Shown piece after piece: positions 11,899 to 21,399 of a stretch of 35,924 bases of DNA. How positions within the stretch are numbered: position 1 is the stretch's first letter; each line of letters begins with the position of its first letter. Source of the stretch: Deltaproteobacteria bacterium (GTDB lineage Bacteria; Desulfobacterota; Syntrophia; Syntrophales; UBA8958); NCBI GenBank assembly GCA_026388335.1, contig JAPLJZ010000196.1, positions 1-35,924 of the forward strand, written 5' to 3'. The notes under the pieces are model-generated. The model worked only from the letters and a program-made list of their open reading frames with translations, made no database searches and had not been told where the DNA came from. Made by a program: the position numbers and the translations under genes.

Positions 11899-12678
11899 TC
11901 AGGCAACGTTCTTTACGGACAAGCTCTTAATCATTTTCGTCAGGGCGGCGACATCGCCGCTTTGAAGAAACGCCAGGAGTTCACCGAGATTCTTCCTGTA
12001 TGAAGTCAGGAGCTTGTCCGTGTGGGGATTTCCGGCGATAAGGTGGGCGTAGAGGCCAGGATGGGCAATGATCCGGTCCAGATGATCGAGCCGTTCCCGG
12101 AAGACAGGCGTGGAAAAACGTCGCAGCTCCTCAGGGGAGACGCCCGACTCGGCCAGGGTCAGCCCCATCATGACGGTGTTGAAGTGATTCAGGCCTTGGA
12201 CAAGGGCCATAATCTTGTCATGCCCTTCCGGCGTGGTCTCCATAAGGTTGGCCCCGTTTTTCTCCAGGATATCCTTCAGCCAGGACAGCCAGCGTTTCCC
12301 CCGGGCGGGGCAGACCGCGATATTTTGGCCGTCCAGGGAGGCAACGCGGGGGCCGAAGAGGGGGTGGAGGCCAATGACCTCGGAAACGGAGGTCTCCAGC
12401 ATAGCCCGGACGGGGACCTCCTTCAGGGAGGTTAGATCCATGAGTACGGATTCACGGAGCATGCAGGGGCCTATCTTCCGGATTACCGCGTCCGTCGCTT
12501 CTATGGGGACGCTTACTATAACCACCGGGCAATCCGCCGCCATCTGCCGGGAGTCGGGGCCGGTGTTACGCCCCGCAATCTGTACGAAATAACCTTCCTG
12601 TTTAAAAAAGGAGGCAAACCATTTGCCCATCCCACCCGTGCCGCCGATGATCCCGATCGGAAATTTATCTGATCTCAC
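11899..12678 (-). CDS. tyrA: Prephenate dehydrogenase
   Basis: This 259-residue protein is the short, single-activity TyrA without chorismate mutase or ACT domain. The NAD(P)-binding loop is GIIGGTGGMGKWFASFF, and the catalytic region includes VLMDLTSLKEVPV, GLHPLFGPRVASLDGQ and the helical GLNHFNTVMMGLTLAE. It oxidatively decarboxylates prephenate (or arogenate) to the tyrosine precursor. The start is a GTG two bases after the aroC stop, so the two are translationally linked. It is the last gene of the aromatic operon. The lack of an ACT domain suggests that feedback control is exercised elsewhere, such as on DAHP synthase. Confidence 0.92.
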   Translation of the reverse strand: MRSDKFPIGIIGGTGGMGKWFASFFKQEGYFVQIAGRNTGPDSRQMAADCPVVIVSVPIEATDAVIRKIGPCMLRESVLMDLTSLKEVPVRAMLETSVSEVIGLHPLFGPRVASLDGQNIAVCPARGKRWLSWLKDILEKNGANLMETTPEGHDKIMALVQGLNHFNTVMMGLTLAESGVSPEELRRFSTPVFRERLDHLDRIIAHPGLYAHLIAGNPHTDKLLTSYRKNLGELLAFLQSGDVAALTKMIKSLSVKNVA

Positions 12679-12680
12679 TT

Positions 12681-13766
12681 TTAACCCCGCCCTTCCCTTT
12701 CACGACGCTGAAAACCGGTAACGGCGCGCTGTCTAAGGAGATGATCGGCCAGGACCAGACAGACCATCGCCTCGCAGACGGGGAGAATCCTGGGAATGAC
12801 GGACACGTCATGGCGGCCGCCAATAGTCAGTTTTACGGGATTTCCATTTACGTCCACCGTATCCTGCTCCCTGGTAATGGAGGGAATGGGCTTGCAGGCC
12901 GCCCGGATCACGAGATCCTGGCCGCTGGCGATCCCCGCCAGGACTCCCCCGGCGTTATTGGCGGCAAAGCTGGAAGGAAGGAGCGGATCATTGCATTGCG
13001 AGCCCGTCATACCCGCGGCGGCAAAACCGGCGCCAATTTCCACCCCTTTAACCGTGCCGATACCCATGAGAGCCTTGGCCAGATCGGCGTCCAGTTTGTC
13101 AAAGACGGGGGCGCCGAGACCGGCGGGGCAACCCTGCACTATTATCTCCACGATCCCTCCCAGGGTATCCCCTGCCTTTTGTGCCTTCTTCAGCGCCGCT
13201 TCCATTTTTGTCGCCGCGGCAAGGTCGGAACAGTTAAAGCGATTCCGCCCCGCCTCCGCAATGATTCCGGCTTCCGCTCTCACGCCTCCCAAGGCAAGGG
13301 TATAGGCCCCAACCATGATCCCTTCCCGGGCGAGGATTTTCCGGGCGACCGCCCCGGCGGCGACCCGGGCGGCCGTTTCCCGTCCGGAAGCCCTTCCCCC
13401 GCCCCGGTGATCCCGGATGCTGTATTTCCGCTCGTAAGTATAATCCCCGTGCCCCGGCCGGAAGACATTCCGGAGGGCTTCGTAGTCCCCGCTTCTGACG
13501 TCACGATTCCAGATGATAAGAGAGATGGGGGTTCCCGTCGTTTTTCCCTCAAAGACCCCCGAGAGGATCTCGACCCGGTCGCCCTCCTTTCGGGGAGACG
13601 ACGCCTCAGTCTGGCCCGGTTTTCGCCGGTCCAATTCCGCCTGGATATCCGCCTCCGTCAATTCCAGGAGCGGTGGACATCCATCGATGACCGCCCCGAG
13701 GGCGGGGCCATGGGATTCCCCCCAGGTGGTAACACGAAAAAGTGCGCCCGCTGTATTTCCTGACAT
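12681..13766 (-). CDS. aroC: Chorismate synthase
   Basis: This 361-residue enzyme has the family landmarks in order: [19 protein letters not shown] at the N-terminus, [31 protein letters not shown] in the flavin-binding core, and [18 protein letters not shown] near the end. It uses reduced FMN to eliminate phosphate from EPSP, giving chorismate, the last step of the common pathway. AGAGGAAAAGAT precedes the ATG. It lies 18 bp after aroK and 2 bp before tyrA. Length is normal for the bacterial enzyme. Confidence 0.97.
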
Positions 13767-13784
13767 ATCTTTTCCTCTCCTGTT

Positions 13785-14291
13785 TCAACCTGCTATGATT
13801 GCAGCGGCAACTTCATCCACCGACCGCGCGGTGGTATCTATGGCCCGGTCGGCAACCAACCGATAGACAGGTTCACGTTCCCGCAGCATGATCTCTATTT
13901 CCGCAACCGTATCCATTCCGGAAAGGGAGGGGCGCTGGGCGTTGCTCACCCGGTCGTTCCTTAGACGTCCCTCGATGGTCGCCGCATCAGCCGTCAGCCA
14001 GAGGAAGAACCCATTCCGTTTGAGTTCTTTCACGTTTTGCTGATCAAGGACGGCGCCGCCGCCCACAGCAATTATGCACCCTTCCCTTCCGGCGAGTTCC
14101 TCGACAGCACTCCTTTCCAACGCACGGAAGGCCTTCCATCCCCCGTCTGCGACGATCTCCCGAATCGTCTTTCCCAGGCGCTCCTGGATCAAAGCATCGG
14201 TATCAAAAAACGGGCGCTGTAACTTTTCCGCCACGATCCTGCCGACAGTGGTCTTCCCACAGCCGCGGTATCCCATCAAGATGATATTCAT
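13785..14291 (-). CDS. aroK: Shikimate kinase
   Basis: The enzyme has a Walker A loop at GYRGCGKTTVG, the shikimate-binding FFDTDALIQER, an ADGGWKAFRALE segment, and GGGAVLD. It phosphorylates shikimate with ATP. The ATG beginning MNIILMGYRG is preferred because homologues start there. The frame stays open 21 codons further up to a TTG at 14354, and another ATG sits at 14321; none has a strong Shine-Dalgarno. It lies between aroA and aroC. Confidence 0.95.
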   Translation of the reverse strand: MNIILMGYRGCGKTTVGRIVAEKLQRPFFDTDALIQERLGKTIREIVADGGWKAFRALERSAVEELAGREGCIIAVGGGAVLDQQNVKELKRNGFFLWLTADAATIEGRLRNDRVSNAQRPSLSGMDTVAEIEIMLREREPVYRLVADRAIDTTARSVDEVAAAIIAG

Positions 14292-14364
14292 AAGTCCGGG
14301 CCCAATCCGTGCTTCAGACATAATATGAAAAAATGATTGTCCACCATATGACAAATCTTCGTTA

Positions 14365-15642
14365 TCATTTACGATATAACTTATCCAGCTCTTTCCAGAA
14401 ACCCGGGAAGGATTTATCCACGCAAGCGGGGTTCTTTATTATCATTCCCGGGACGGCTAAACCCAAGATGGCAAAGCTCATGGCAATCCGGTGATCGTTG
14501 TAGGTCTCAATTTCTGCGACCTGGGGCTGCCCCCCGGTGATGACGAGGCTGTCCTGCCGTTCTTCAACCTGAATCCCCGTTTTTCTCAGCTCCGTGGCAA
14601 CGGCCGCCAGGCGGTCGCTTTCTTTCAGGCGAAGATGGGCCACATTGGCGATGACCGTCCGTCCCGGTCGCAATGCGGAGAGAACGGCCAGCGTAGGAAC
14701 CATGTCGGGCATATCCTTGAGATCGAAGACAAGGTCTCCTCCGGGCAGAGGCCGGCCTGTCAGTTCAACCCCGTTTCCCTTCCGATTAACGAAACAGCCT
14801 GCATCTTCCAGGAGGGAAAGGAAGCCGATATCGCCCTGCAGGCTTTGGGGATTGACGTTTTCGACCCGTATCTTTCCCTGGCAGAGGGCGGCGGCCAAGA
14901 AAAAATAGGAAGCGCTGGAGACATCGCCTTCAATCCGGCAGCTTATTCCCCGATAGCACTGATTGCCTTTTACACTATAACGGCAGGGAGTTGCTGTTTG
15001 CACTTCCACGCCAAATTCCTTCATGGCCGCGACGGTCATGTTGACATAGGGCAGGGATGGGATACGACCGGCCAATTCGATGAGCGTATCACCTGCTGCA
15101 TAGGGGGCAGAGATCAGGAGGGATGAGATGTACTGGCTACTTTCGATGTCCCGGAGGATTACCGTGCCCCCCCGCAACCCCAACGTCCGGATAAGAACGG
15201 GGGGATAGCCTTCCCGGTCGCGGCCCCGGGCATCGACGCCGAGATTTCTCAGGGCCTCCAGAAGCGGTTCGAGGGGTCTTTCCCGCAGGCGTTCGCCTCC
15301 CGTCAGGGTGAAAGTCCCCGGGCCGATGGCAACCAGGCCGGTCAGCATGCGCATGGCCGTGCCATTATTCCCCAGGTAAATCTCTTTGCCCGGATCGGCC
15401 AGGCAGCCTCCGGCACCGGCGATGTAAAGACCCCCGGCGCGGCTGCTGATGTCCGTACCCAGAGATTTCAGGGCGGAGATGAGATAGGAGGTGTCCTCCG
15501 ACACGAGGGGGTTATGGAGGATGGATTTCCCGGCGGCAATCGCCGCCAGAATTAGTGCCCGCTGGGTGTGGCTCTTGGAGCCGGGCATGATCACGGCAGC
15601 CTCCAGGGGATGGGGCAGGGGTCTGATTTCTATAGTTTCCAT
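14365..15642 (-). CDS. aroA: EPSP synthase (3-phosphoshikimate 1-carboxyvinyltransferase)
   Basis: The protein has about 425 residues, a normal length. PGSKSHTQRALILAA near residue 20 binds the substrates, YLGNNGTAMRMLTG contains the conserved loop, SQYISSLLISAPYA binds shikimate phosphate, and YNDHRIAMSFAILG is the C-terminal hallmark. It joins shikimate 3-phosphate and phosphoenolpyruvate to give EPSP. The loop reads GNNGTAMR rather than GNAGTAMR, a change at the position often linked to glyphosate sensitivity. AAGGT lies eight bases before the chosen ATG. It is 22 bp downstream of aroE. Confidence 0.97.
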   Translation of the reverse strand: METIEIRPLPHPLEAAVIMPGSKSHTQRALILAAIAAGKSILHNPLVSEDTSYLISALKSLGTDISSRAGGLYIAGAGGCLADPGKEIYLGNNGTAMRMLTGLVAIGPGTFTLTGGERLRERPLEPLLEALRNLGVDARGRDREGYPPVLIRTLGLRGGTVILRDIESSQYISSLLISAPYAAGDTLIELAGRIPSLPYVNMTVAAMKEFGVEVQTATPCRYSVKGNQCYRGISCRIEGDVSSASYFFLAAALCQGKIRVENVNPQSLQGDIGFLSLLEDAGCFVNRKGNGVELTGRPLPGGDLVFDLKDMPDMVPTLAVLSALRPGRTVIANVAHLRLKESDRLAAVATELRKTGIQVEERQDSLVITGGQPQVAEIETYNDHRIAMSFAILGLAVPGMIIKNPACVDKSFPGFWKELDKLYRK

Positions 15643-15667
15643 CAATTTTTACCTTTAATGGACATAT

Positions 15668-16498
15668 TCAATCTTCAGGTTGCCCGCCTTGGAGGGCAGC
15701 GAGAACTGTTTGCCGCATCGTGGCAAGGGGCGGTTCCCGGCCCGTCCAGATCCGGATCTGCTCTGCCCCCTGGTGTACAAAGAGACCCACACCGTTGATT
15801 GTCAGGCAGCCCATCTCCTTCGCATCCCTGAGCAGCTTCGTTGTCAGGGGGTTGTAAATGGCATCCATGACATAGCGGAAGTTTGTCAGGATCTCCCTTT
15901 TCAGGGGCGATCGGTCTGTATTGGGGGACATGCCGACCGGGGTGGTCTGGATCAAAGCTTCGGCCCGGAAGTCGCCCAGGGCGTCAAGAGGCAGGGACAG
16001 ACTGTTAAAATCCCGGGCCAGGGCTGCGCCCCGCTCCTGCGTCCGATTGAAGATCACCGGAATTCCTCTCTCCTGAAGAAGGCCGAAGACAGCGGCCCGG
16101 GCCATCCCCCCAGCCCCGAGGACGGCGAAGGTTTTCCCCTTGATTTGCAAATAATTCCTCAGATCCCGAACCAGTCCGACCCAGTCCGTGTTGTCCCCGA
16201 TAAGCCTGCCTTCCCGGGTGAAAATGGTATTGACGGCGCCGATGGTCCGGGCGCTTGCCGTGATTTCATCCAGGCTCCCGATGATCGCTTCTTTGAAGGG
16301 CAGGGTGACACTTGACCCGTCAATCCCCAATGATTTCATCATGGGGACGATTTCGCCGGCATTTTCCACCCGGCAAGCCTTATACCTGGCCGCAATTCCC
16401 ATCTCCTCGTAGGCGGTCCGGTGCATCCAGGGGGAGAGACTGTGACCGACGGGATTGCCGAAAAGGGCAAAGAGTTTTCCCTGATCTTTTCTTTTCAC
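15668..16498 (-). CDS. aroE: Shikimate dehydrogenase
   Basis: The shikimate-binding end is FGNPVGHSLSPWMHRTAYE, followed by VTLPFKEAII with the catalytic lysine, GDNTDWVGLVRDLR with the catalytic aspartate, and the NADP-binding VLGAGGMARAAV. It reduces 3-dehydroshikimate to shikimate. The start was set at a GTG (VKRKDQGKLFALFG) with AAGGA nine bases upstream. The frame stays open to 16543, but those extra residues come from the adjacent dispersed repeat. The C-terminus has GVGLFVHQGAEQIRIWTG, typical of the family. Confidence 0.95.
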   Translation of the reverse strand: MKRKDQGKLFALFGNPVGHSLSPWMHRTAYEEMGIAARYKACRVENAGEIVPMMKSLGIDGSSVTLPFKEAIIGSLDEITASARTIGAVNTIFTREGRLIGDNTDWVGLVRDLRNYLQIKGKTFAVLGAGGMARAAVFGLLQERGIPVIFNRTQERGAALARDFNSLSLPLDALGDFRAEALIQTTPVGMSPNTDRSPLKREILTNFRYVMDAIYNPLTTKLLRDAKEMGCLTINGVGLFVHQGAEQIRIWTGREPPLATMRQTVLAALQGGQPED

Positions 16499-16515
16499 CT
16501 GAAAATATCCTTCAC

Positions 16516-16562
16516 AAAATCCCCCTAAATCCCCCTCTGACAAAGAGGGAAAATTCCCCTCG
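16516..16562. repeat. Degenerate CCCCCT-type palindromic repeat next to aroE
   Basis: Two AATCCCCCT units, a CTCTG-ACA-AAGAG stem-loop and a shortened AAAATTCCCC arm make up a degraded copy of the palindrome found intact at 28721-28775. It fills the spacer between aroD and aroE and supplies a spurious upstream extension to aroE. The adjoining bases to 16615 contain further short repeats (GGTACTTGGTAC and GATAGACTATC). Confidence 0.6.
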
Positions 16563-16621
16563 AATAGATCGGAACTCGGTACTTGGTACTCGAAGATAGA
16601 CTATCCCGGGCAATTCCGACT

Positions 16622-17299
16622 CTATACCAAAATTCTCAGGATTTGCTTCATCTCCTCGACAGTCATCTGCCCCGGCGCCGCCTCTTCCCCCTTGTCCAAG
16701 GAGGCGAAAGCGAGGTACGATCCCAACAGCGGGGCCATGATCCGGCTGATCCGCCCCTGTTCCCCCATGCAGAAGGCGATAATGTCCTGCCCTTTTTTTC
16801 GGGAGTAGGGGATCAGGGACAAAACCCGGAGATTGTCCTCGCTGTGCCGGGCATGGGTTACAATCTTTACGATATCGCCGCCCTTTTCCCGGCAGGAGCC
16901 CCATATCCGGCGCAAGGCGCCCCCCGTCGGGGTGGCGTTAAAATCATGAAAAGAAACAATTATTCTGGTGTGACTTCCCTGCCCTGCCACAGCGCCAAGA
17001 ACCTGCCGGGCCAGGCCATCGTCCGTGGCGGCTTCGATGTCCACGTATTCCGCCTTAAAGCGGACAGCCTCACAAAGAAGAAATATCCGCTCTTCCTCGG
17101 TCCCTCGAAAACCTCCCCCTTCCTCCCACCGTCGGTTGGTAATGAGGACCGGGCCCGTTTTCGCTTTCACGAGGACCGGCAGGTCCAGATCGGCAATCAG
17201 GTCAATCCGCAATTCCAGCAGGTCGGCATGGCGGAAACCGGTGGTCATTTTTTCCAGGGCCGTTTCCATCGTCTCGGCCACCAGGGAAGCGCAAATCAC
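16622..17299 (-). CDS. aroD: 3-Dehydroquinate dehydratase, type I
   Basis: This 225-residue protein is a class I (Schiff-base) dehydroquinase. ITNRRWEEGGGF is the substrate arginine region, IIVSFHDFNATP holds the catalytic histidine, and GGDIVKIVTHARHSED the Schiff-base lysine. Late MGEQGRISRIMAPLLGSYLAFASL closes the barrel. It dehydrates 3-dehydroquinate. The start is a GTG overlapping the pheA stop by four bases (GTGA), with GGAGGAG upstream. It is not fused to aroE as in some relatives, and a dispersed repeat separates the two genes. Confidence 0.94.
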   Translation of the reverse strand: MICASLVAETMETALEKMTTGFRHADLLELRIDLIADLDLPVLVKAKTGPVLITNRRWEEGGGFRGTEEERIFLLCEAVRFKAEYVDIEAATDDGLARQVLGAVAGQGSHTRIIVSFHDFNATPTGGALRRIWGSCREKGGDIVKIVTHARHSEDNLRVLSLIPYSRKKGQDIIAFCMGEQGRISRIMAPLLGSYLAFASLDKGEEAAPGQMTVEEMKQILRILV

Positions 17300-18378
17300 G
17301 TCGTCTCCTCCCCCCGGGGATAGGAACCCAGGATTTTGAGAAATGTAGCCCTACCTTCAATATCCTGCAAACACAGCCTAACCTGTTCATCATCCCGATG
17401 ACCGGCAAAATCGGCAAAGAAAAGATATTCCCACATCCGGTCCCGCAGGGGATGGGACTCGATCCGGAGCAGGTTTATCCGCTCCCGGGCGAATATTTCC
17501 AGGGCCTGAAAGAGGGCCCCTGGGACATGGGGAGTTCCGAAGAGGATCGATGTCTTGTCCTGTCCCGTCCTTCCAGTTTTACCCTTACCGATGACCAGGA
17601 AGCGGGTGGTGTTGGCGGGATTGTCCTCGATATCCTCCGTCAGGATGGACAGCCCGTGGATCGTTGCCGACAGGAGGCTTCCCACCGCCGCCCCCCCCTC
17701 CGGGTCGCGATGCGCCCGCTCTCCCGCTTCCGAGGTGCTGGTGGTCTCCAATTGTTCGGCCTGCGGCAGGTTTTCCCGGAGCCAGTTCCGGCACTGGGCA
17801 AAAGCCTGAGGATGGGAATAAACCCTGCTGATGTCCTCCTTCTTTAAACAATGAGACATCAGGCACTGGGAAATCCTCAGGAATACTTCCGCCCTAATAT
17901 CCAGCGATGTCGTGATCAATCTTCTGAGGGTATGCCCTACGGAACCTTCTGTCGAATTTTCGACCGGGACAATTCCCAGGGCGATGTTTCCTCTCTCCAC
18001 ACGGTCAAAGACCTGATCGATCGTCCCGGCAGGGGCCAACTCCGCACTGTGACCGAAATTGGCAAGGGCGGCCAAATGGCTGAATGAGGCCTCCGGTCCT
18101 AAATAAGCTACTGTCAGGGGCCCCTGCAAGGCCCGAGAGGATGAAAAGATCTCCCGGAAAATTTCTCTGATGGCGGCATCGTTCAAGGGCCCGGTATTGT
18201 ACTTCCTCAGAAAATCAAAGACCCGGGATTCCTGGGCAGGACTGTAAACATCGATGCCACAGGAACGCTTTACCTGACCGATTTCCACGGAGCGGGCCGC
18301 CCGTTCATTGAGAAGCCGCAAAATGTCTCCGTCGAGTGCTCGGATATCTTCTCGAAGTTGTTCAAGCGTTTTTTCCAT
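17296..18378 (-). CDS. pheA: Chorismate mutase/prephenate dehydratase (P-protein)
   Basis: Three domains are visible. Residues 1-85 are an AroQ chorismate mutase (EDIRALDGDILRLLNERA). The dehydratase follows, with VAYLGPEASFSHLAA and GIVPVENSTEGSVGHTLR, and TTRFLVIGKG ends it. The last ~85 residues are an ACT regulatory domain (PGALFQALEIFARE, then RIESHPLRDRMWEYLFF), where the usual ESRP motif reads ESHP. It turns chorismate into phenylpyruvate. The ATG was chosen for its GAGGTG nine bases upstream; a GTG 45 bases further up is also open. It lies between aroB and aroD, overlapping aroD by four bases. Confidence 0.95.
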   Translation of the reverse strand: MEKTLEQLREDIRALDGDILRLLNERAARSVEIGQVKRSCGIDVYSPAQESRVFDFLRKYNTGPLNDAAIREIFREIFSSSRALQGPLTVAYLGPEASFSHLAALANFGHSAELAPAGTIDQVFDRVERGNIALGIVPVENSTEGSVGHTLRRLITTSLDIRAEVFLRISQCLMSHCLKKEDISRVYSHPQAFAQCRNWLRENLPQAEQLETTSTSEAGERAHRDPEGGAAVGSLLSATIHGLSILTEDIEDNPANTTRFLVIGKGKTGRTGQDKTSILFGTPHVPGALFQALEIFARERINLLRIESHPLRDRMWEYLFFADFAGHRDDEQVRLCLQDIEGRATFLKILGSYPRGEETT

Positions 18379-18428
18379 CAGGAAATGCACCTCATAATCA
18401 TTGATTTTACTTTGTTTTTCCACATTGT

Positions 18429-19520
18429 TTACAGCCTTTCAATAATCTCCCTGATCAGGCTATCCGGGACGCCACCGTTGACAAAGGGCATCCCGGGGCT
18501 TTTCAGGAGGACGAAGTGAACAACATTTCCCTCCTTCTTCTTATCCCGCTGCATTCTGGCCAGGACGCCGTTGCTGCCCATACCTGCGGGCATGCGGACG
18601 GGAAGACCTGTCTTTTGCAGGAGACGGATGATCCTATCCCGGTCGGCGGCCGGCAGGTGTCCAAGCCGCTCCGAAAGGACAAGGGCCACCGCCATGCCGA
18701 TGGAGACGGCTTCACCGTGAGGGATGGAGTAATCGGCTTCCGCCTCGATGGCATGTCCCAGGGTATGACCGAAATTGAGGATTCTTCTCAAACCATGCTC
18801 CTGCTCATCGATCTCGACAATTTTCTTCTTGATTTCACAGGTTCTCATCACGATGGGAATCAGGGCGGCCAGATCGCCGTCAGGCTTCAAGTCCGCCGCT
18901 TTTTCTTCGAGAAGATCCAGGAGGCCGGGATCGTCGATAATGGCGCATTTCACTATTTCCGCCAGACCGTTTTTGAATTCGTTACCGGGGAGCGTCCTAA
19001 GGAAGGACAGGTCGGTGAAGGCCGCCTTGGGCTGATGAAAGGTTCCCAGCATATTCTTCGCCGCCGGCAGATCAACACCCGTCTTGCCGCCGATGCTGCT
19101 GTCCACCTGAGCCAAGAGGGTAGTGGGTATGTGGAGGTAAGGAACGCCCCGCATGAAGATGGAGGCGACAAAACCCGTCAGATCGCCCACCACGCCACCG
19201 CCCATGGCAATAAGACCGGAGGTGCGGTCGGCGCCGCGACGGAGCAGCTCTTCCGCGAGAGCGACGGCGGTCGGCATGGTCTTGGTTCTCTCTCCCGCCG
19301 GTAAAATAATCACTTCCACGGGTAGTCCCATCTTTTTGAAAACGTCCATAACCCTCTGTTCATGGAGTTCGGATACATTAGTATCCGTGATCAGGAAATA
19401 TTTTTTAGCCCAGCTTCCTTTGGCGATAAGCAGAACGGCCCGGTCCAGGATGTCCTGGCCGATATAGACATCATAGGAGCGGGAGATCTTTTTTTCGATG
19501 CTGACCTTGAATCGGTTCAT
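18429..19520 (-). CDS. aroB: 3-Dehydroquinate synthase
   Basis: This 363-residue enzyme has the NAD-binding [17 protein letters not shown], the phosphate-binding [28 protein letters not shown], and [11 protein letters not shown], with histidines and glutamates that bind the catalytic metal. It cyclises DAHP to 3-dehydroquinate, the second pathway step. The ATG overlaps the aroF stop as ATGA and is preceded by GAGGTGACACG, so translation is coupled to aroF. Length and motifs are normal for the bacterial enzyme. Confidence 0.97.
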
Positions 19521-20545
19521 CGTGTCACCTCGATCTGATCCTTCATGACCTTGGACAAGATGCGTACTTCCTCCATGAGTTCATAGAACTTTTCCGGTTT
19601 CAGGGACTGGGCGCCATCGGAGATGGCCTTTTCCGGCTCCGGATGGACCTCGATGATCAACCCGTCCGCCCCGGCCACAACGGCTGTCCGGGCCAGGGGT
19701 TTAACATATTTCCAGTGACCGGCGGCATGGCTGGGATCGACGATGACCGGCAGATGGGTCAGTTCCTTCAGGACGGGTACGGCGCTGATATCGAGGGTAT
19801 TGCGGGTTGCCGTCTCGAAAGTGCGGATTCCCCGTTCACAGAGGATCACGTTGTCATTACCGGCGGCAAGGATATATTCTGCCGCCATAAGGAGTTCCTC
19901 GATGGTGCTCATCATGCCCCGCTTGAGGAGGACGGGTTTTCTTGCCTGCCCCACCTTCTTCAGGAGAGCGAAGTTCTGGACGTTCCGGGCTCCAATCTGG
20001 AGGATATCTACGTATTGCTCCACCAGATCCACGTCCGTCGTGTTCATAACCTCCGTCACCACGGGGAGTCCAGTTTTTTCCCGAGCCTTTTTAAGGATTT
20101 TGAGTCCCTCCTCTTCCATGCCCTGGAAACTGTATGGGGAGGTGCGCGGCTTGTAAGCCCCTCCCCGTAGGATTTGGGCGCCCCCTTTCCGGGCGATGTA
20201 GGCGCTCTCCAGGAGCTGTTCCTCGCTTTCGATGGAACAGGGACCGGCCATGACGACAAAATCGGGGCCCCCGATCTCCACCTCCCCGACGCGGACAATC
20301 GTATTGCCGTCCCGCGATTCGCGACTGGCAAGCTTGTAAGGTTTCAGGATGGGCATGATATTTTCCACGCCCGGCAGGTGCTCCGCCGATTTCAGTTGCG
20401 CCTTGCCCCGGTCATCACCGACAATGCCGATGATTGTTCTTTCCACCCCTTGGGATGGGTGGGCCCGGTAGCCCACCGATTCGATCCAGCCGATAACGGC
20501 ATCGATCTGTATTTCTGTGGCACTCTTCTTCATGATGATAATCAT
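19517..20545 (-). CDS. aroF: DAHP synthase, type I-beta with N-terminal regulatory domain
   Basis: The 342-residue protein starts with a ferredoxin-like domain (about 1-70, [29 protein letters not shown]), as in the tyrosine-inhibited enzymes of the Thermotoga type. The catalytic barrel follows: [56 protein letters not shown], and [10 protein letters not shown] with a metal-binding histidine. It condenses phosphoenolpyruvate with erythrose 4-phosphate, committing carbon to aromatics. GGAGG lies eight bases before the ATG. It is the first gene of the operon and has an attenuator-like leader, so control probably acts on both enzyme and transcript. Confidence 0.95.
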
Positions 20546-20564
20546 TGCTTAGACCTCCAAATAA

Positions 20565-20649
20565 GTAAGGCCATGGGAACCTTCGCCGTCCCATGGCCTT
20601 ACAAAAACAAAAAAGCCACGGGGGACATTCCGTTCCACCCATGGCTCAT
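20565..20649 (-). promoter_or_regulatory. Attenuator-like leader of the aro operon
   Basis: Read on the minus strand, four segments can pair. Segment 1 (20646-20638, AGCCATGGG) pairs with segment 2 (20622-20614, CCCGTGGCT), followed directly by TTTTTTGTTTTTG. Segment 3 (20602-20589) and segment 4 (20578-20565) form a perfect 14-bp stem (GTAAGGCCATGGGA) with a ten-base loop. Segment 2 can instead pair with segment 3, since segments 1 and 3 share GCCATGGG. The mutually exclusive 1:2 plus 3:4 versus 2:3 layout is that of a classical attenuator. The aroF Shine-Dalgarno starts a few bases after segment 4. Which hairpin terminates is not certain. Confidence 0.6.
20599..20649 (-). CDS. Putative 16-residue leader peptide upstream of aroF
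   Basis: The frame reads MSHGWNGMSPVAFLFL and stops at a TAA inside segment 3 of the leader. It contains one Trp and two Phe codons; the Phe codons lie in the U-rich tract after the first hairpin, where a stalled ribosome would alter hairpin choice. No convincing Shine-Dalgarno precedes the ATG, so translation is uncertain. An aromatic-residue leader peptide before DAHP synthase fits amino-acid-sensing attenuation, by analogy with trpL and pheL. Confidence 0.4.
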   Translation of the reverse strand: MSHGWNGMSPVAFLFL

Positions 20650-20795
20650 TTTTCTATTTTTTTATGGTTTTACGTTTTCCTGAGCGATAGGCAGTCCGGG
20701 GCGCCAAAATAATAATACCAAAAATAAAAGCTGTTCCGCGCGATCTTGCTACCCATCTTGTTGTTTAACTGCTCCTTGTCGCAATTTGTGAGGGT

Positions 20796-20826
20796 GTATT
20801 AATTCACGGTTTATTAAGGAAGTCAA
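20796..20826 (-). promoter_or_regulatory. Possible promoter of the aro operon
   Basis: On the minus strand TTGACT (20826-20821) is followed by TTAATA or TAATAC after 18 or 19 bases. It would give a transcript starting about 140 bases before the leader peptide. The spacing is slightly long. The wider 20546-21003 gap also holds the aroF leader and the divergent promoter at 20934. Confidence 0.35.
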
Positions 20827-21003: not shown

Positions 21004-21399
21004 ATGAAGGAAATAACATTCGATGAAATCCTGAAGGAGGAATTCCTCAAGGAAAGGGCCGTCGTCCTGGGACGGACCGGAGAAAGCGTAGCAAAGGCCA
21101 TTGTCAAGCTTCAGCGGATGGCGCAGGTTATTGAGGAAAATCATCAATACATGAGAAGTCTGGAGGATCGGTTGGGCGGGGACCCCAACCATGATGACCT
21201 CAAAAAGGCGAAAGGAAAGGCCCTCAAGGACATTAATAAGATGATTCTTCAATACAATCGCCTCTGCGATCATGCCCAGTTGCGGTATTATTATCTGATC
21301 GTTACCCGGGAGGCCATGGGTTTGAGAAGTCATCACCGCATGGAGGAATTTTACCGTATTCCTCCGAAAAAAAAACAGCTCTCGGGGAATAGGGAATAA
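21004..21399 (+). CDS. Helical protein of unknown function upstream of pcm
   Basis: This 131-residue protein has no signal peptide or membrane segment. It is charged and predicted mostly helical (EILKEEFLKERAVVLG, VAKAIVKLQRMAQVIEENHQ, KKAKGKALKDINKMILQYNRL), with a tyrosine-rich YYYLIVTREAMGL and a basic tail. I do not recognise the family. Its TAA stop overlaps the pcm ATG by one base, so translation is coupled. A near-consensus promoter stands about 40 bases upstream. The start codon has no clear Shine-Dalgarno. In other bacteria pcm usually follows surE; this protein takes that position and is not SurE. Confidence 0.75.
   Translation: MKEITFDEILKEEFLKERAVVLGRTGESVAKAIVKLQRMAQVIEENHQYMRSLEDRLGGDPNHDDLKKAKGKALKDINKMILQYNRLCDHAQLRYYYLIVTREAMGLRSHHRMEEFYRIPPKKKQLSGNRE

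Follow-up and report, generated by a model that had tools for sequence, protein, structure and literature searches.

Described attenuators and the aromatic operon

The pheL and trpL attenuators of enteric bacteria each have a single terminator and serve one amino acid. Like the leader reported here, they employ a leader peptide with aromatic codons and attenuation by the supply of charged tRNA (PMC11802643), but in our case a single run before the common pathway combines Phe, Tyr and Trp codons, and no Rfam family matches. The enteric his attenuator consists of six segments, which pair as AB, CD and EF in the off state and as BC and DE in the on state, and it has a leader peptide with tandem codons (PMC10989985). 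In the aroR-aroF system of Corynebacterium glutamicum, a Phe-Tyr-Phe leader peptide precedes the DAHP synthase gene, and transcription is raised by Phe limitation but not by Tyr limitation (PMC11802643, PMC4046766); this system belongs to another phylum and has only three aromatic codons. As outlined in PMC3641672, the Salmonella mgtCBR leader also holds two attenuators in series, but two short ORFs are involved there, while a single ORF is proposed to set both hairpins here. For Desulfovibrio vulgaris, a putative attenuator before aroA'-aroB'-aroQ.pheA-aroF-tyrA-trp is included in the list of Merino cited in a 2005 paper (PMC1173090), where the entry, as cited, comes without leader peptide, segments or comparison. 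This prediction likewise concerns a deltaproteobacterial aromatic supraoperon and possibly belongs to the same family. A survey has concluded that amino-acid attenuators are perhaps of gammaproteobacterial origin, with few transfers (PMC3766115). Our literature searches returned no work on attenuation in Syntrophus or Desulfobacterota, and no open-licence paper describing the family was found.

The DNA analyzed here, termed the window, is a stretch of 35,924 nucleotides (contig JAPLJZ010000196.1 of assembly GCA_026388335.1) from a bacterium of the order Syntrophales in the phylum Desulfobacterota. A sequence-only reading had proposed that a whole aromatic operon of nine genes, headed by a DAHP synthase gene, may be controlled by attenuation from the interval 20565-20649. 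Every one of these nine genes was identified by Pfam, and the proposed type of control is strongly supported by our data, but the leader peptide is a different one that lies upstream and is found throughout the order. The proposed interval does contain the hairpins, but it starts too late, as the element begins about 110 nt further upstream. The features of the locus are as follows.

20798..20826, minus strand: promoter-like site TTGACT-17-ATTAAT (9 of 12 matches), placed by its position compared to relatives
20670..20756, minus strand: leader peptide ORF of 28 codons, MGSKIARNSFYFWYYYFGAPDCLSLRKT plus stop codon, with an equivalent frame in 85 anchored relatives
20748..20756, minus strand: segment 1, ATGGGTAGC, at the start of the leader, predicted to pair with segment 2 from an upstream-partner search
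20706..20729, minus strand: eight consecutive aromatic codons (F-Y-F-W-Y-Y-Y-F), proposed as the sensor from the codon content in relatives
20686..20699, minus strand: segment 2, CCGGACTGCCTATC, a part of the leader ORF that provides the antiterminator strand, from its pairing with segment 3
20630..20646, minus strand: segment 3, 5' arm of hairpin 1, AGCCATGGGTGGAACGG
20614..20625, minus strand: segment 4, 3' arm of hairpin 1, TCCCCCGTGGCT
20602..20614, minus strand: U-tract of terminator 1, TTTTTTGTTTTTG, from T counts in relatives
20586..20602, minus strand: segment 5, 5' arm of hairpin 2
20565..20579, minus strand: segment 6, 3' arm of hairpin 2, forming a perfect 14-bp stem with segment 5
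20554..20558, minus strand: Shine-Dalgarno sequence GGAGG of the DAHP synthase gene
19517..20545, minus strand: DAHP synthase of type I beta with ferredoxin-like N-terminal domain, first gene of the operon (PF00793, 4.6e-82; PF18152, 5.9e-23)
11899..19520, minus strand: remaining genes of the operon, with DHQ synthase, chorismate mutase-prephenate dehydratase, DHQase I, shikimate DH, EPSP synthase, shikimate kinase, chorismate synthase and prephenate DH (Pfam)

In relatives, a promoter-like site of the TTGAC type keeps a fixed distance upstream of the leader. At least 10 of 12 matches to such a site were present in 67% of 79 relatives compared to 3% of shuffled sequences, and in most relatives TTGAC is located 110-149 nt upstream of a conserved V codon (82 occurrences, compared to few per bin elsewhere). 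A simple promoter and terminator scan of the window, which worked with narrow loop and match limits, did not report the leader promoter or either hairpin. The recognizable gene adjoining the operon is a divergent PCMT gene on the plus strand. An ORF of 131 aa without Pfam match (21004-21399, plus strand), also divergent from the operon, ends at the start of this PCMT gene. Elsewhere in the genome of the window, contig C68 contains a second, distant DAHP-like match with 28% identity.

A leader peptide with a run of aromatic codons

The upstream regions of the orthologous DAHP synthase gene were collected from about 88 places in the order, and 85 of them could be anchored; a few (e.g. G036, G049 and G010) were not anchorable or did not have the usual layout. 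Directly upstream of the hairpins, nearly all recovered relatives have a short ORF in which 5-9 of ten codons are aromatic and which mostly ends in a form of -VCPSLRRT. The leader frame of the 85 anchored relatives contains on average 7.5 aromatics in 15 codons, compared to 2.4 and 1.9 in the other two frames, and it is not interrupted by a stop codon in any of them, whereas stops interrupt the other two in 52 and 28 sequences. All three kinds of aromatic codon (Phe, Tyr, Trp) occur together in 76 of these relatives, and the short ORF of the window, with its eight aromatic codons, is likewise rich in codons for the products of the pathway. Together with the helices described below, this makes it very probable that the whole shikimate/Phe/Tyr operon is subject to ribosome-mediated transcription attenuation by aromatic amino acids.

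The leader peptide suggested by the sequence-only reading was a 16-codon frame, MSHGWNGMSPVAFLFL, inside hairpin 1. This frame does exist (20649..20599, ending within segment 5), and it starts with ATG in most members of the window's genus. Nevertheless, because only 7 of 80 relatives share its start codon, and all of these are close to the window, because no Shine-Dalgarno sequence was found ahead of it, and because the aromatics of its 'FLFL' end are the U-tract read as codons, we conclude that it is not the leader peptide. In one member of the genus the frame starts with ACG and in another it is cut to 7 codons. Moreover, the frame lies inside the terminator, and a ribosome translating it would disrupt the terminator itself whatever amino acids are present. 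Attenuation by means of this peptide is thus extremely unlikely. The alignment of upstream regions that had been suggested as a check gave a divided answer: the stems are supported by the partner tests described below, but the small frame is not conserved.

In many relatives the last leader codons (CGCTNAGGAGGACNTAA, columns 15-29 of alignment A1) include a Shine-Dalgarno-like AGGAGG just before the stop codon. This motif, which is degraded in the window (20670-20686, AGGAAAAC), might hold a terminating ribosome near segment 2. One relative (L064, in G036) seems to have lost the leader peptide and has a promoter-like TTGACA-17-TATGTT directly before hairpin 1.

Six alternating RNA segments

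The leader RNA can be described as six alternating segments, with 3:4 and 5:6 (together with 1:2) in the predicted OFF state and 2:3 and 4:5 in the predicted ON state. This corresponds to the six-segment logic of the his attenuator, with three tandem hairpins set against two alternative helices, the codons being aromatic in the present case. The region 20540-20660 folds at −52.7 kcal/mol compared to −31.3 in shuffled sequences (z = −6.5, none of 200 shuffles being as good). Both hairpins had been recognized in the sequence-only reading, which numbered our segments 3 to 6 as 1 to 4. Hairpin 1 (20646..20614), followed by the T-rich tract, was found as described and is the first terminator, and the perfect 14-bp stem of 20602..20589 with 20578..20565 is the second tandem hairpin. 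The pairing recognized between the two hairpins (CCGUGGC with GCCAUGG) is also present; it corresponds to 4:5 and is supported as a putative second alternative helix by tests of own versus permuted partners. The antiterminator is a helix of the 3' part of the leader with segment 3, and it had not been part of the earlier scheme.

The consensus of segment 2, GGTCTGCCCAT, is complementary to segment 3, GCCATGGGYAGAYC, and the two form on average 10.05 of 11 pairs in relatives (9 in the window), compared to 2.7-4.5 when shifted. This helix excludes the terminator and begins downstream of the stall codons. The nucleotides of segment 2 are read as VCP in most relatives (43 cases), whereas other lineages read them as GLP (17) or SA (4), and their use in three reading frames indicates that they are kept as RNA rather than as peptide. 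The OFF helices are 94.8% paired and include 14 pairs with double changes, compared to 7.9 in shuffles, which supports 3:4 and 5:6. The ON helices are 89.7% paired, compared to 30-44% when slid.

Partners were also exchanged among genomes, using one genome from each of 19 families (p-value floor of 0.002). This exchange weakened 3:4 by 2.3, 4:5 by 1.7 and 5:6 by 5.0 kcal/mol (median p-value = 0.002), whereas the sequence-matched control 3:6 changed by 0.05 (p-value = 0.57). For 2:3 the own-partner effect within the order was weak (p-value = 0.09), as there is hardly any variation in either strand. Among elements from outside the order (n = 40), each of the helices 2:3, 3:4, 4:5 and 5:6 gave a p-value of 0.0005, with −17.5 for own compared to −14.5 for exchanged partners in 2:3, and −17.4 compared to −15.2 in 4:5. 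Since the control 3:6 also showed a small effect in this set (−15.0 compared to −14.0, i.e. −1.0 compared to −2.2 kcal/mol for 4:5), part of the 4:5 signal may be due to correlated arm composition.

In relatives, segment 1 represents the start of the leader, with sequences such as ATGGACAG, ATGGGTAG and ATGGGCAG. When the upstream region was searched for the best partner of segment 2, this partner overlapped an in-frame start codon in 63 of 80 relatives, but support for 1:2 is moderate because the mean z is only −1.3. The competition of 2:3 against 3:4 is the most certain part of the scheme, followed by the 4:5 step, with 1:2 being less certain.

Two predicted terminators in series

Hairpin 1 is followed by at least 4 T in 8 bases in all 78 relatives counted, and by at least 6 in 72 of them, so that 3:4 and its U-tract provide an intrinsic terminator between the leader ORF and the first gene in all 78. 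After hairpin 2, at least 5 T in 8 bases were found in 65 of 78 relatives. It had been regarded as a puzzle that the U-tract follows the first and not the second hairpin; this is true of the window, where the second tract is weak (TTATTTGG), but most relatives are U-tailed after both hairpins. The second U-tract is poor in the genus of the window (TTATTTGGAGG), where it runs into the aroF Shine-Dalgarno sequence. Outside the order, 40 of 44 elements have U-tracts after both hairpins, although this set was selected with the covariance model and is therefore biased. The his attenuator differs in this respect, as its U-run is located only on EF; a restriction of the U-run to the last hairpin was not observed here.

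An ordinary four-segment attenuator (1:2, 2:3, 3:4) could also be envisaged, in which hairpin 2 is independent, serving as a constitutive back-up terminator or as a stabilizer of the mRNA 5' end, and 4:5 is a by-product of a shared CCATGG core. As CCATGG is palindromic, the complementarity of 4:5 over 7 bp is indeed almost free; furthermore, the strongest own-partner effect is that of 5:6, the OFF state is far more stable than the ON state, and a few relatives (G020, G030) lack a clear second hairpin. However, 4:5 shows its own-partner effect even with one genome per family, while 3:6, which has the same core, shows none. The 4:5 complementarity also includes columns 131-133 in the hairpin 2 loop, where 5:6 has no need of pairing, and the 4:5 column pair 89-130 occurs as GC, GU, AU and CG. 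In addition, a constitutive second terminator would shut the operon even when the first is open. We therefore regard independence of the two hairpins as possible but rather doubtful. Coupling of the two terminators via 4:5 is somewhat more probable than not from these comparisons, and two coupled U-tailed terminators combined with mixed-aromatic sensing look like a new arrangement.

Energetics and proposed mechanism

The OFF state of the window (1:2, 3:4, 5:6) has a predicted energy of −71.0 kcal/mol, compared to −57.9 for the ON state (2:3, 4:5), and the ON state must therefore be won kinetically. As long as segment 4 has not been made, the predicted fold is 2:3 (−21.7); for the full prefix, 3:4 is the thermodynamically favored fold, even when the first ~11 nt past the stalled A-site are shielded. 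Assuming that ~11 nt downstream of the A-site are shielded, segment 2 remains uncovered when the ribosome stalls at codons 1-7 of the run, is partly covered by a stall at codon 8, and has been passed by a ribosome at the stop codon.

From the peptide, the codon match, the helices, the U-tracts and the position of the promoter, which are directly visible in the sequences, we infer stalling, its kinetics, termination and the following order of events. Transcription would start near 20790, followed by entry of a ribosome into the leader of 28 codons. A shortage of charged tRNA for Phe, Tyr or Trp would make this ribosome stall in the aromatic run (20729..20706) and leave segment 2 free, which would then pair with the emerging segment 3 before segment 4 is made and so block the terminator 3:4. 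The freed segment 4 would capture segment 5, the second terminator 5:6 would be hindered, and the nine-gene operon would be transcribed. With plentiful aromatics, the ribosome would reach the stop codon by crossing segment 2, which would allow first 3:4 and later 5:6 to form and terminate transcription. Pairing of 1:2 would likewise favor termination when the leader is not translated. Two ideas are now testable, namely that one leader senses three amino acids in the manner of an OR gate, and that a single stall opens two terminators in series.

Distribution of the leader family

A covariance model was built from segments 2-6, excluding the codon run, and it gave at least one match in 197 of 395 genomes of the phylum. 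Upstream of 40 model matches examined, the best 10-codon window contained on average 6.25 aromatics, compared to 2.3 in shuffles. Among the genes located after matches are those for three first enzymes, namely the DAHP synthases of type I-beta (TIGR01361) and type I-alpha (TIGR00034) and the alternative first enzyme ADTH synthase (TIGR01949), and further genes encode anthranilate synthase (trpE), TrpB-like enzymes and periplasmic binding proteins of ABC transporters. For the most part, the codon run matches the downstream gene: it is mixed F/Y/W before most genes of the three first-enzyme types, W before trpE and TrpB-like genes, and F- or Y-rich before genes for ABC binding proteins. The genome of the window itself has an NNNWWWQ leader before trpE (L114, G000:C237) and a CWWWQ leader before a TrpB-like gene (L116, G000:C187), both with a similar hairpin skeleton, as well as a Phe-only leader, MNRQISNITISGFFFSFFSFFGEVCRPCS, before a periplasmic-binding-protein-like gene (L113, G000:C137:1590-1709, minus strand). 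The codon run before this gene is FFFSFFSFF, and the assignment of the gene to an ABC-type binding protein is based on its sequence resemblance to L158. The leader suggests that the L113 gene is Phe-regulated and probably encodes part of a Phe-related transporter. Leaders similar to that of L113 were seen at L158 and L174.

Taken together, we tend to favor the view that these leaders form an attenuator superfamily that spans the phylum and is not listed in Rfam. In this view, a single stall would open both terminators one after the other, with the helices 2:3 and then 4:5 forming like dominoes, and a change of the codon run alone would have adapted the same skeleton to the common pathway (with mixed F/Y/W codons as a putative OR gate), to Trp genes and to presumed Phe or Tyr uptake genes. 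This is of importance because classical attenuators have been regarded as largely gammaproteobacterial (PMC3766115), whereas the coherent family described here is present in about half of the genomes sampled from another phylum. The family probably sets the expression of the whole aromatic pathway, also in syntrophs and sulfate reducers, and its codon runs provide hints to the regulation and substrate class (Phe or Tyr) of vaguely annotated ABC transporters.

A metabolite riboswitch, a T-box or a protein-binding leader with an incidental aromatic peptide would also account for conserved hairpins, and T-box control of amino-acid operons is common in other phyla. We consider this very unlikely, because the codon run tracks the gene product (Trp-only, Phe-only or mixed) while the RNA skeleton stays constant, and no large conserved aptamer was seen between the promoter and the hairpins. 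Also, an Rfam scan of the window returned no family at the gathering score, and only chance-level matches at E-values up to 10. The His_leader model (RF00514) scored 15 bits in the window, compared to a gathering score of 49 (E-value 3.9), and neither the Trp_leader (RF00513) nor the T-box (RF00230) model matched at gathering. Merely structural hairpins, i.e. terminators of an upstream gene or a dispersed palindromic repeat, can be virtually dismissed. Viewed in isolation, the U-tailed hairpins do resemble terminators, but the neighboring PCMT gene is divergent, a conserved promoter-like site and the peptide lie just upstream, and the other matches in the same genome are located before amino-acid genes and not at random places.

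When a DNA pattern was searched over 84,980 species, matches were found mostly in deltaproteobacterial lineages, including Desulfosarcina, Desulfomonile and Smithella. Desulfosarcina widdelii and D. alkanivorans are examples of cultured relatives with the element. Pattern matches in Actinobacteria, Betaproteobacteria, Planctomycetes and others were devoid of an aromatic run and were taken as chance.

Several individual leaders deserve mention. At L159 and L165, Trp-only leaders (WRWWW and GWWWC) precede type I-beta DAHP synthases, unlike the mixed leaders elsewhere, and these enzymes are perhaps Trp-dedicated isozymes. In other families of the phylum (L147, L157, L168 and L178), Tyr-rich leaders (YYYYGYLRR, DYYGYGYLRR) stand before genes for binding proteins of the Peripla_BP_6 type, which makes these genes candidates for Tyr-regulated transporters. 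A Trp leader, IGWWWAGSSSRVCPS, precedes a gene for an outer-membrane Phenol_MetA_deg protein (L150). Two weak model matches with one clear hairpin each have a Leu-rich short ORF and are possible Leu attenuators: LAILLDLALLCLLLHTRR before a leuA-like gene (L118, G000:C63:6460-6599) and LFGLLRLSLLLVGL before a gene for a 2-oxoacid oxidoreductase gamma-type subunit (L117, G000:C113:529-648). Lastly, a Lys-rich short ORF, IKKTFGKKQGIKR, is located before a dapA-like gene (L115, G000:C63:5055-5146, minus strand), together with a GGGGCTACCCAT / ATGGGTAACCCC pair, and may represent a Lys attenuator.
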